In this document: positions 6,777 to 62,130 of the stretch, piece by piece
Layout of the letters: each line of letters starts with the position of its first letter
How positions within the stretch are numbered: the first letter of the stretch is position 1
Source of the DNA: Blastococcus sp. URHD0036
GTDB lineage: Bacteria > Actinomycetota > Actinomycetes > Mycobacteriales > Geodermatophilaceae
Length of the DNA: 64,000 bases
Assembly (NCBI RefSeq): GCF_000701365.1
Contig: NZ_JNIK01000011.1
Span: 310,001 to 374,000, forward strand
Direction of reading: 5' to 3'
Position numbers and translations under genes: made by a program
Notes under the pieces: generated by a model
What the model was told of the DNA's origin: nothing
The model's database searches: none
What the model saw: only the letters and a program-made list of their open reading frames with translations

Positions 6777-7484
6777 GTGAGCGATCCCCTCGCGCCGGGC
6801 GCCTCCGACATCGGCGAGTACCTGGTGAGCTGCCGCTCGTTCGACGAGTACCGGGCCATGTTCGGGCTCACCGACGACGACCTGGCCGGCCGGGTGCTGG
6901 ACTGCCCCGGCGGCGGAGCCGGGTTCACCGCGGTGGCGCGGGGGATCGGCGTGCGGGCCGTCGCGGCGGACCCGGTGTACGCCACCGCGCCCGAGGAACT
7001 CCTCGCACGGCTGCGCGAGGAGCTCGAGCGGGGCAGCGCGTGGACACGGGCGCACGCGTCCCGCTACGTCTGGTCCGCCTACGCCGGCGGACCGGAGGAG
7101 CACGCCCGCGTGCGAGCGGAGGCAGCGGGCCTGTTCGCCACCGACCTGCTCGCCCGGCCGGACGGCTACGTGGCAGCGGCCCTGCCGCACCTGCCCTTCG
7201 CCGACGACAGCTTCGACCTCGTGCTCTCCTCGCACCTGCTGTTCACCTACGCCGACCGCATCGACACGGCGGCCCACGAGGCGGCGCTGCGCGAGCTCGT
7301 GCGGGTCAGCCGCGGCCGGGTGCTGGTCTACCCGCTGGTCGACCAGGCCGGACGGGCCGTGCCCGACCTGGTCGACCGGCTCTCGGCAGCCCTGGGCGCC
7401 GACGGCGTCCGGGTCCGCGTGCGGGGCACCGACTACGAGTTCCAGCGCGGCGCCCGCCAGCTGCTGGAACTCAGCCGGCCGTGA
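6777..7484 (+). CDS. Class I SAM-dependent methyltransferase
   Basis: 235 residues from GTG. Motif I is VLDCPGGGAGFTAVA near residue 40, with the acidic ribose-binding residue in AVAADPVY, and the post-motif segment LPFADDSFDLVLSSHLLF near 139 is typical of small-molecule methyltransferases. The glycine-rich loop has CPGGGAG rather than the usual GxGxG. The substrate is not predictable. The gene converges with the ABC exporter and the two overlap by 14 bases, so transcription from either side could interfere. Confidence 0.83.
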   Translation: MSDPLAPGASDIGEYLVSCRSFDEYRAMFGLTDDDLAGRVLDCPGGGAGFTAVARGIGVRAVAADPVYATAPEELLARLREELERGSAWTRAHASRYVWSAYAGGPEEHARVRAEAAGLFATDLLARPDGYVAAALPHLPFADDSFDLVLSSHLLFTYADRIDTAAHEAALRELVRVSRGRVLVYPLVDQAGRAVPDLVDRLSAALGADGVRVRVRGTDYEFQRGARQLLELSRP

Positions 7485-9357
7485 CCGCCAGGACCGGCTC
7501 CTCGGGCTCGGCGAACTGCGTCCGGTACAGCTCGGCGTAGCGGCCACCGGCGGCGAGGAGGTCCGCGTGCGTCCCGCGCTCGACGATCCGCCCCGCCTCC
7601 AGCACGAGGATGCAGCCGGCGGCGCGCACCGTGGAGAGCCGGTGCGCGATGACGATCGCCGTCCGGCCGTCGAGGGCCTCGTCCAGCGCGGCCTGCACCG
7701 CGGCCTCCGAGGTGGAGTCCAGGTGGGCGGTGGCCTCGTCGAGGAGCACCACCCGGGGGCGGGCGAGCAGCAGGCGGGCGATGGTCAGCCGCTGCCGCTC
7801 GCCGCCGGAGAGCCGGTACCCGCGCTCGCCGACCACCGTGTCCAGCCCGTCGGGCAGCGCGGCCACCAGGTCGGCCAGCCGGGCCCGGGTCAGGGCGGCC
7901 CACAGGTCGTCGTCCGTCGCGTCGGGGGCGGCCAGCAGCAGGTTGGACCGCAGCGACTCGTGGAACAGGTGCCCGTCCTGGGTGACCAGCCCCAGGGTCC
8001 GGCGGATCGCGGCGAACGACAGGTCCCGGACGTCGACCCCGCCCAGCCGGACGGCGCCGGAGTCGACGTCGTAGAGCCGTGGGAGCAGCGAGGCGATGGT
8101 CGACTTGCCCGCGCCGGACGAGCCGACGATCGCCACGACCTGGCCGGGCTGCACGGTGAAGGACACGTCGTGCAGGACGTCGACCCCGCCACGCGAGTCC
8201 AGCTGGGCGACGTCCTCCAGCGAGGCCAGCGACACCTTGTCCGCGGACGGGTAGCCGAAGGTGACGCCGTCGAACTCCACCGACACCGGGCCGTCGGGCA
8301 CGTCGAGGGGGTCGGGCCGCTCGCGCACCAGCGGCACGAGGTCGAGGACCTCGAAGACCCGCTCGAAGCTGACCATGGCCGAGGAGACGTCGACGCGGGC
8401 ACTGGCCAGCGCGGTGAGCGGGGCGTAGAGGCGGGTGAGCAGCAGCGCGAGGGCGACCACGGAACCGGCGTCCAGCGAGCCGCGCAGCGCGTAGAACCCG
8501 CCGAGCCCGTAGACCAGCGCCAGGGCGAGCGCCGACACGAGCATCAGCGCGCTCACGAACGCCCACTGCACCATCGCCGTCCGCACGCCGATGTCGCGCA
8601 CCCGGCCCGCCCGCGAGGCGTACTCCGCGGACTCCCGGTCCGGCCGGCCGAACAGCTTGATCAGCGTCGCGCCGGGCGCGGAGAACCGCTCGGTCGTCTG
8701 GTCGGTCATGGCCGCGTTGTGGTCGGCCGCGGCGCGGCCGAGGTCGGCCAGCCGGGCGCCGATCCGGCGGGCCGGGAACAGGAAGGCCGGCAGGAGCAGC
8801 AGCGACAGCACCGTCACCTGCCACGACAGCGTGAGCATGACCGCGCCGGTCAGCACGAGGGTCACGGTGTTGCTGACGACGCCGGCGAGGGTGTCGCTGA
8901 ACGCCCGCTGCGCCCCGATGACGTCGTTGTTGAGCCGGGAGACCAGCGCGCCGGTGCGGGTCCGGGTGAAGAACGCGACCGGCATCCGCTGCACGTGGTC
9001 GAAGACGGCGGTGCGCAGGTCGAGGATCAGCCCCTCGCCGAGGCTGGCCGAGAGGTACCGGCCCACCAGCGACAGCGCCGTCCCGGCGACGGCGATGACG
9101 GCGATGAGCACCGCGAGCCGGACGACCACCGACACGTCGCTGCCCTCGACGATCTCGTTGACGACCATGCCGGCGAGCAACGGGGTCGCCACCGTCAGCA
9201 CGGCCTCGACGACACCCACCCCGACGAAGGCGGCGATCCGGCGCCGGTGCGGACGGGCGAACTCGCGCACCCGCCGCACGGTCGCCCACGAGAAGGGACG
9301 CCGCTCGGTGCGGCCGTGCATCGCGTTCGACATGGCCGACCAGGCCGACATCTCCAT
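7471..9357 (-). CDS. ABC exporter, fused permease and ATPase
   Basis: 628 residues from the ATG at 9357. A GTG at 9390 lies upstream of the predicted transcription start, so it was rejected. The N-terminal half is a type-I exporter membrane domain of six helices. The C-terminal ATPase has GSSGAGKST (Walker A), VTQDGHLFHESLRSNLLLA (Q-loop region), LSGGERQRL (signature) and VVLLDEATAHLDS (Walker B). It is a homodimeric or half-size drug/lipid exporter of MsbA/LmrA type. Its promoter has the 19-base spacer and palindrome of MerR-family control; the repeat resembles a SoxR box, so export of redox-active compounds is a reasonable guess. Confidence 0.92.
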   Translation of the reverse strand: MEMSAWSAMSNAMHGRTERRPFSWATVRRVREFARPHRRRIAAFVGVGVVEAVLTVATPLLAGMVVNEIVEGSDVSVVVRLAVLIAVIAVAGTALSLVGRYLSASLGEGLILDLRTAVFDHVQRMPVAFFTRTRTGALVSRLNNDVIGAQRAFSDTLAGVVSNTVTLVLTGAVMLTLSWQVTVLSLLLLPAFLFPARRIGARLADLGRAAADHNAAMTDQTTERFSAPGATLIKLFGRPDRESAEYASRAGRVRDIGVRTAMVQWAFVSALMLVSALALALVYGLGGFYALRGSLDAGSVVALALLLTRLYAPLTALASARVDVSSAMVSFERVFEVLDLVPLVRERPDPLDVPDGPVSVEFDGVTFGYPSADKVSLASLEDVAQLDSRGGVDVLHDVSFTVQPGQVVAIVGSSGAGKSTIASLLPRLYDVDSGAVRLGGVDVRDLSFAAIRRTLGLVTQDGHLFHESLRSNLLLAAPDATDDDLWAALTRARLADLVAALPDGLDTVVGERGYRLSGGERQRLTIARLLLARPRVVLLDEATAHLDSTSEAAVQAALDEALDGRTAIVIAHRLSTVRAAGCILVLEAGRIVERGTHADLLAAGGRYAELYRTQFAEPEEPVLAVTAG

Positions 9358-9369
9358 GCTCACCCGCCG

Positions 9370-9400
9370 ACCGTAGGAGCTCCAGTGCACTGGAGGTCAA
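9370..9400 (-). promoter_or_regulatory. MerR/SoxR-type promoter of the ABC exporter
   Basis: On the minus strand TTGACC (9400-9395) and TACGGT (9375-9370) are separated by 19 bases, longer than the usual 17. The spacer region holds the perfect 16-base palindrome CTCCAGTGCACTGGAG (9380-9395). A long spacer with a central dyad is the hallmark of promoters activated by DNA distortion by MerR-family regulators. The arms are close to the SoxR consensus (CCTCAAGT). A soxR gene is present at 60902-61390. Confidence 0.65.
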
Positions 9401-9422: not shown

Positions 9423-9461
9423 CGGAATGGCGGTTCTGCACGGTGCAGAACCGCCATTCCG
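9423..9461. terminator. 39-base near-perfect hairpin
   Basis: A 19-base arm (9423-9441) and its exact reverse complement (9443-9461) are separated by one base. It lies 17 bases beyond the stop of the leftward TPR gene and just upstream of the exporter promoter. It probably terminates the TPR transcript and insulates the exporter promoter. With so short a loop, cruciform DNA or a protein-binding site is also possible. Confidence 0.5.
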
Positions 9462-9478
9462 CCCCGGGGAGGAGGACG

Positions 9479-60901: not shown

Positions 60902-61390
60902 CTACCCCGCGCGCCCGGCCGCGTCCCCCGCGTTCGAGGTGGGCGGTATGCGGCGCAGCGCCGGGGAGAGCCAGCGGGCGCCCGGCCCGTACGCGGCGGC
61001 GACGTCCCCCGCGTTCGACAGCGCGCACCGGGACAACGACAGGCAGCCGCAGCCGATGCACGCCGCCAGCCCGTCGCGCAGCTGGGTGAGCGCGGCGATC
61101 TGCTCGTCGAGGCGGGCCCGCCAGGTGTGCGACAGCCGGGCCCAGTCCCGCGCCGTCGGGGTGCGGCCCTCCGGCAGGGTCGCCAGCGCCTCGCGGATCT
61201 CCGGGAGCGAGAGCCCCACGTTCTGCGCCGCCCGGATGAACGCCAGCCGGCGCAGCACCGACCGCGGGAACCGGCGCGCACCCCCGGCCGTCCGCTCGCA
61301 GCTGACCAGTCCCTCCGCCTCGTAGTAGCGCAGCGCGGACACCGCGACCCCCGACCGTGCCGCGACCTCGCCGATCGCCATGAGCTCCAC
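60902..61390 (-). CDS. soxR: Redox-sensing MerR-family activator SoxR
   Basis: 162 residues from a GTG with AGAGGA at ideal spacing (ATG at 61381 possible). The MerR winged helix is IGEVAARSGVAVSALRYYEAEGL (given in part), and the 2Fe-2S site is C111-C114-C116-C122 in CIGCGCLSLSRC, matching E. coli SoxR spacing. SoxR is activated when its cluster is oxidised by redox-cycling compounds. It is divergent from an SDR-QueA operon with a SoxR-type box between (61407-61424). Confidence 0.93.
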   Translation of the reverse strand: MELMAIGEVAARSGVAVSALRYYEAEGLVSCERTAGGARRFPRSVLRRLAFIRAAQNVGLSLPEIREALATLPEGRTPTARDWARLSHTWRARLDEQIAALTQLRDGLAACIGCGCLSLSRCALSNAGDVAAAYGPGARWLSPALRRIPPTSNAGDAAGRAG

Positions 61391-61402: not shown

Positions 61403-61433
61403 TTGACCTCGAGTGGACTTGAGGCAAGACGGT
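61403..61433 (+). promoter_or_regulatory. SoxR box and long-spacer promoter of the SDR-queA operon
   Basis: TTGACC (61403-61408) and GACGGT (61428-61433) are 19 bases apart with CCTCGAGTGGACTTGAGG (61407-61424) between. The dyad matches the SoxR consensus at nearly every arm position. The -10 is weak, as expected for an activator-dependent promoter, and stands 7 bases before the SDR ATG, so the mRNA would be leaderless. Confidence 0.8.
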
Positions 61434-61440
61434 ACGCGGC

Positions 61441-62130
61441 ATGGAGATCCGCACCGCTCTCGTCACCGGCGCCTCGCGCGGCCTCGGTGCCGCCCTCGCC
61501 ACCGCCCTGAACGCCCGGGGATGGCACCTCGTCCTCGACGGCCGGGACCCCGACCGGCTGGCCGCCGCCGTCGCCGCGCTGCCCCGTCCCGACCTGGTCA
61601 CCGCCGTGCCCGGGAACGTCGCCGACCCGGACCACCGCGCCGCCCTCGCCGCCGCCGTCCCCTCCCGGCTCGACGCCGTGGTCAACAACGCCTCCGACCT
61701 CGGGCCCACCCCGCTCCCCCGCCTCGCCGACCTGCCCCCGGCCGCGCTGGAGCGGGTGCTCGCGGTCAACACCGTCGCGCCGCTGGCACTGGTCCAGGCG
61801 GTGCTGCCGGCACTCCGCACCGCCCGCGGCCGGGTGCTGGACGTGAGCAGCGACGCCGCGGTCGAGCCCTACCCCGGCTGGGGCGGCTACGGCGCCAGCA
61901 AGGCCGCGCTGGACCACCTCTCCGCCGTCCTGGCGGTGGAGGAGCCGGCGCTGCGCGTGTACGCCGTCGACCCGGGCGACATGGCCACCGACATGCACCG
62001 TGCCGCCGCGCCGGAGGACGACGGGCTGCCGGGGCCGGAGACCGTGGTCCCGGCCCTGCTCCGCCTGCTGGACGACGACCTCCCGTCCGGCCGGTACCGC
62101 GCCGCCGACCTCGTGGCGGTGGCCCGATGA
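61441..62130 (+). CDS. Short-chain dehydrogenase/reductase
   Basis: 229 residues from ATG. TALVTGASRGLGAALATALN is the TGxxxGxG NAD(P) motif, VVNNASDLG the NNAG-like motif, LDVSSDAAVEP includes the catalytic Ser and GGYGASKAALDHLSAVLAVE the YxxxK. Most SDRs reduce ketones or oxidise alcohols. It is controlled by the SoxR box in its promoter and overlaps queA by 4 bases. A role in disarming redox-cycling compounds is inferred from regulation only. Confidence 0.93.
   Translation: MEIRTALVTGASRGLGAALATALNARGWHLVLDGRDPDRLAAAVAALPRPDLVTAVPGNVADPDHRAALAAAVPSRLDAVVNNASDLGPTPLPRLADLPPAALERVLAVNTVAPLALVQAVLPALRTARGRVLDVSSDAAVEPYPGWGGYGASKAALDHLSAVLAVEEPALRVYAVDPGDMATDMHRAAAPEDDGLPGPETVVPALLRLLDDDLPSGRYRAADLVAVAR

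Follow-up and report, generated by a model that had tools for sequence, protein, structure and literature searches.

In MerR-family activators such as SoxR, the dimer sits between the two hexamers of a promoter whose spacer is overlong, and oxidation of the SoxR cluster untwists the DNA. The closest described counterpart of the locus studied here is the Streptomyces coelicolor ABC exporter SCO7008 (EcaA), whose expression depends on soxR (5-fold by RNA-seq and 15-fold by qRT-PCR) and is brought back by complementation, and SoxR directly binds its targets in this species (PMC4146615). In a second report, SCO7008 appears merely among putative drug exporters under SoxR control (PMC3924187). For S. 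scabiei, the soxbox-bearing SoxR-regulon members listed are SCAB_5581, SCAB_12171 (an ABC transporter), SCAB_62351 and SCAB_70221 (Table 4 of PMC4146615). A literature search covering titles and the beginnings of abstracts returned no SoxR study in Geodermatophilaceae and none on leaderless SoxR targets. Here, we analyze an exporter promoter in a 64-kb stretch of a Blastococcus genome (the window), and find that positions 9370–9400 most probably (about 0.9) constitute a SoxR-activated, MerR-type promoter of an exporter orthologous to EcaA, as judged by comparative sequence analysis.

Architecture of the exporter promoter

The promoter lies on the minus strand, directly ahead of a gene for an MsbA-type ABC exporter of about 630 aa (7471–9363, minus strand). 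Its −35 element, TTGACC (9395–9400), is conserved in orthologous promoters, and its −10 element, TACGGT (9370–9375), corresponds to a TAnnnT at equal spacing in the orthologues. The two are separated by 19 bases, within the overlong 19–20 bases of MerR-type promoters, and enclose a predicted SoxR box of 18 bases, CCTCCAGTGCACTGGAGC (9379–9396, minus strand), supported by its sequence, by pattern counts and by a weight matrix. Inside this box is a perfect 16-base palindrome, CTCCAGTGCACTGGAG, running from 9395 to 9380. A preliminary description of this DNA had reported both hexamers with 19-base spacing around a 16-base palindrome, which proved exact on the minus strand from 9400 to 9370, and had counted 13 of 16 arm positions in agreement with the SoxR box, CCTCAAGT-N2-ACTTGAGG; our recount against this E. 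coli box gave the same number. The three departures are an A-to-C change in both arms and a change of the last G to C. Only 6 bases separate TACGGT from the GTG start codon at 9363 (reading GTG AGC ATG GAG), so the exporter mRNA is probably leaderless.

To quantify the site, we combined pattern searches with a 31-base matrix trained on 72 exporter promoters, from which Geodermatophilaceae were left out. The 5.18-Mb genome contains a single exact match to CTCCAGTNNACTGGAG, and at up to three mismatches the window holds three matches versus 0.26 expected by chance. The matrix picked only two places in the 64-kb window, the exporter promoter at 29.1 bits and the promoter between soxR and a short-chain dehydrogenase (SDR) gene at 18.1 bits, the next window position scoring −2.7. 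Simulation of 200 Markov strands, each 64 kb long, gave a maximum of 10.1 bits, which places the exporter site far beyond chance. Because the matrix was learned from exporters elsewhere, the soxR-linked site of the window was recognized unprompted.

Between a TPR gene and the exporter promoter, at 9425–9465, the window also carries a near-perfect inverted repeat, GCGGAATGGCGGTTCTGCAC/GTGCAGAACCGCCATTCCGC, with nearly loopless arms of about 20 bases, one of which is still visible in L040. This repeat is possibly a bidirectional terminator.

The exporter is an EcaA orthologue

The exporter combines a fused membrane domain and ATPase (Pfam ABC_membrane and ABC_tran), and its nearest models are MsbA-like, with scores below the MsbA equivalog cut-off. 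To relate it to a proven SoxR target, we mapped sites in the S. scabiei genome by proportional position and product. A pattern search found five sites only, at 0.626, 1.371, 4.955, 6.905 and 7.774 Mb, and a reversed control pattern found none in the same genome. The sites at 0.626, 1.371, 6.905 and 7.774 Mb are proportional to SCAB_5581, SCAB_12171, SCAB_62351 and SCAB_70221, at 110.7–112.7 bases per locus-tag unit, and the genes behind them encode an EcaC-family protein, the exporter orthologue (L067), an FMN reductase and a monooxygenase-like protein, the last called by reading, with no Pfam match in the part scanned. L067 is the sole exporter-linked site among the five and is located where SCAB_12171 is expected; its exporter is 77% identical to that of the window. 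Since these four sites coincide in position and product with published SoxR-regulon genes, among them the SCO7008 orthologue, the window exporter is by this mapping an orthologue of EcaA/SCO7008. The statement in the preliminary description that Streptomyces SoxR regulons include an ABC transporter was likewise correct, as SCO7008 and SCAB_12171 illustrate (PMC4146615). The fifth S. scabiei site (L298, 4.955 Mb) is outside the published regulon table and precedes a 154-aa reading frame at +98.

Conservation of the promoter across actinobacteria

We examined 400 bases upstream of 80 orthologous exporters (73–94% identical) from other actinobacteria and found a common motif, TTGACCTCAA-N6-TTGAGGT-N2-TA, with 17 fixed positions. 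It is present in 77 of the 80 at 0–5 mismatches and in 76 at no more than 4, with zero mismatches in 34 orthologues and one in 29; control stretches from the same loci gave 0 of 1600 at 4 or fewer mismatches. Two of the three box-less orthologues (L075 and L076) are cut by contig ends, and the third is from Hoyosella (L088). In 46 of the 77 box-bearing orthologues, the −35 element opens 37 or 38 bases ahead of the start codon, a distance at which their mRNAs would be leaderless.

These data bear on two other readings of the palindrome. Short inverted repeats are plentiful in high-GC genomes, and the site could be one that arose by chance or could belong to an unrelated promoter. A chance palindrome is ruled out by the matrix score against the Markov maximum together with the conservation of position and spacing across families, and the probability of this reading is negligible. 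The site could also be a relic, descended from a SoxR box but by now a poor binder in this species through drift, as its three non-consensus arm positions and its score below the training minimum (29.1 versus 33.6 bits) might suggest. Against this, the A-to-C changes are symmetric and thus leave the palindrome perfect, the relative G110 shows an identical symmetric change (CCTCCAGTGGGCTGGAGG), position 5 is altered in other boxes of the family too, and the exporter site retains its spacing, −35 and −10 elements and scores above the soxR/SDR site. We consider a relic very improbable.

soxR and the soxR/SDR promoter

The window encodes, at 60902–61381 on the minus strand, a redox-sensing MerR-family activator that scores 197.5 bits with the NCBIfam SoxR equivalog (cut-off 116.9) and matches E. 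coli SoxR (2ZHG) at E = 9e-41. It has a MerR HTH domain, a dimerization region and a CX2CXCX5C cluster (CIGCGCLSLSRC); judged by this cluster and the SoxR cut-off, it is a true SoxR. A second predicted SoxR box, CCTCGAGTGGACTTGAGG (61407–61424, plus strand), separates soxR from the divergently oriented SDR gene (61441–62130, plus strand; Pfam adh_short), a predicted SoxR target whose start codon is 38 bases from the first −35 base, as in a leaderless gene. This box, conserved beside soxR in about 19 relatives, had earlier been called authentic-looking. It agrees with the consensus at 15 of 16 arm positions and scores 18.1 bits; its −10 element, GACGGT, is weaker than the TACGGT of the exporter.

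Co-occurrence of exporter, box and soxR

Genomes that hold the exporter generally hold soxR as well. A SoxR match at E < 1e-40 was found in 47 of the 48 genomes from which exporters were fetched, and among 295 genomes sampled across the class soxR was present in 104 of 112 with the exporter versus 75 of 183 others, shared ancestry being uncorrected. The box follows the same pattern: counted as present at 4 or fewer mismatches, it precedes 41 of 61 exporters checked in soxR-holding genomes versus 1 of 8 in soxR-less ones (Fisher p = 0.005, ancestry uncorrected), and within Geodermatophilaceae 10 of 12 versus 0 of 3. Re-searching the soxR-less genomes with all candidates scored left soxR absent from them, and the available flanks of the box-less exporters contained no box further upstream. 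In two genomes of another family (G208 and G219), soxR and the exporter operon point away from each other on either side of the box, providing direct genomic support for a link between SoxR and the exporter; in G208, a short reading frame stands ahead of the exporter.

There are exceptions. Many of the 20 of 61 exporters that lack the box in soxR-holding genomes come from one family (f19), and one Geodermatophilaceae genus represented by MAGs (g6) has soxR and an exporter without a box. Conversely, G189 (L254) and G129 (L057) have a perfect exporter box and no SoxR-like full-length protein, as would result either from recent loss of soxR or from control by another regulator. These two genomes, the 20 box-less exporters and the three arm departures leave room for other regulators or for lineage-specific rewiring, for which there is too little support to prefer them over SoxR.

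The most concrete form of this alternative is that the exporter is activated from the palindrome by a different MerR-family protein encoded in this genome. The genome has about ten MerR-type domains (about nine proteins besides soxR), G189 and G129 retain the box, and the inner six bases of exporter boxes vary among orthologues, in contrast to the GT-N2-AC that is usual in the soxR-adjacent boxes of the family. At the screened exporter loci, however, there is no close MerR neighbor except soxR itself in G208 and G219 (the screen used the soxR sequence, and distant MerR types could escape it). Near the other MerR genes of the genome, a single well-spaced palindrome was found (L003); its arms differ, CTGGAGT-N2-ACTCCAG, and the exporter matrix gives it −14 bits. 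The S. scabiei sites coincide as a set with the published SoxR regulon (PMC4146615). We regard control by another MerR protein as improbable. The L003 palindrome belongs to a MerR-type promoter, TTGCGCTGGAGTGGACTCCAGCGCGGAGAGT, with a 19-base spacer, near base 409 of that locus and about 1 kb from the MerR gene.

Control by SoxR is thus favored by the footprinting, the published S. scabiei and S. coelicolor regulon, the joint distribution of the exporter, its box and soxR, and the divergent soxR–exporter pairs. The proposal that the exporter is a SoxR target is upheld by the footprint, the regulon mapping and the co-occurrence with soxR; the position originally given for the gene, 7471, is its 3′ end, the gene running from 9363 to 7471.

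A candidate SoxR regulon in this genome

A genome-wide motif search, as proposed in the preliminary description, found sites of the same build not only at the exporter but also in front of genes for the SDR, a PIG3-type quinone oxidoreductase, an EcaC-family protein (L127) and a DrrA-type transporter ATPase. The quinone oxidoreductase site (L122, G000:C12:196368-196388; also L160 and L165), with the start codon at +38, is found in three species of the genus (L122, plus G109 and G110). That of the DrrA-type ATPase (L123, G000:C16:4487-4507) also occurs in about a dozen relatives, some with a more distant DrrA homologue; the Geodermatophilaceae loci with a SoxR-like box and a leader of about 130 bases are L022, L029, L032, L161, L164, L166, L170, L173, L175 and L176, and the DrrA-type transporter of this family is a candidate for a second SoxR-controlled exporter. 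With the exporter matrix, L123 and L122 score weakly, at 11 and 14 bits, and both are therefore candidates only. Four of the five predicted targets, the exporter included, start 37–38 bases from the −35 element, consistent with leaderless mRNAs, and the DrrA leader is about 130 bases.

Discussion

We propose that the 19-base separation of the −35 and −10 elements would be too long for good sigma recognition until a SoxR dimer, supplied by the soxR gene at 61381 and seated on the palindrome, twists the DNA once its [2Fe-2S] cluster is oxidized. RNA polymerase could then initiate on the GTG codon or immediately beside it, yielding a leaderless exporter mRNA. The exporter in this organism probably serves to export redox-active small molecules that oxidize SoxR.

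The locus adds a further case to an established control circuit and leaves the general picture of SoxR unchanged. It indicates that the link between SoxR and EcaA, which was proven in a single Streptomyces, is conserved widely among actinobacteria, and it offers a testable small regulon for Geodermatophilaceae, a desert- and stone-dwelling family. Somewhat short of even odds, the circuit may have been rewired in this family, with a fifth arm position that tolerates A, C or G, targets that are mostly leaderless and transcribed from a SoxR-controlled +1, and an EcaA core extended by a divergent SDR and a DrrA-type transporter, so as to sense environmental or self-made pigments and not a known antibiotic.

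Among described systems, S. coelicolor EcaA (SCO7008; TCDB 3.A.1.106.9; PMC4146615, PMC3924187) shares the orthologous exporter, with soxR elsewhere on the chromosome, and a promoter with TTGACC, a CCTC...GAGG dyad, a 19-base spacer and a TAnnnT −10 element; the arms are CCTCCAGT...ACTGGAGC in the window and CCTCAA...TTGAGG in the EcaA system. The quinone oxidoreductase at L122 recalls SCO0320ext, and the EcaC-family protein at L127 recalls the EcaC-family gene of S. scabiei. The window organism belongs to Geodermatophilaceae and is not known as an actinorhodin maker, and its soxR is divergent from an SDR gene with a second box in between, whereas S. coelicolor soxR is reported not to be autoregulated. 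The E. coli soxS promoter and SoxR share with the window the CX2CXCX5C cluster and an 18-base dyad within a 19-base spacer, but the window is without a soxS relay, and the transporter gene is predicted to be a direct target. The SoxR regulon of Pseudomonas aeruginosa, made up of two transporters and the monooxygenase PA2274, is likewise small and direct and combines transporters with redox enzymes, differing in its transporter types and in having phenazines as the natural signal.
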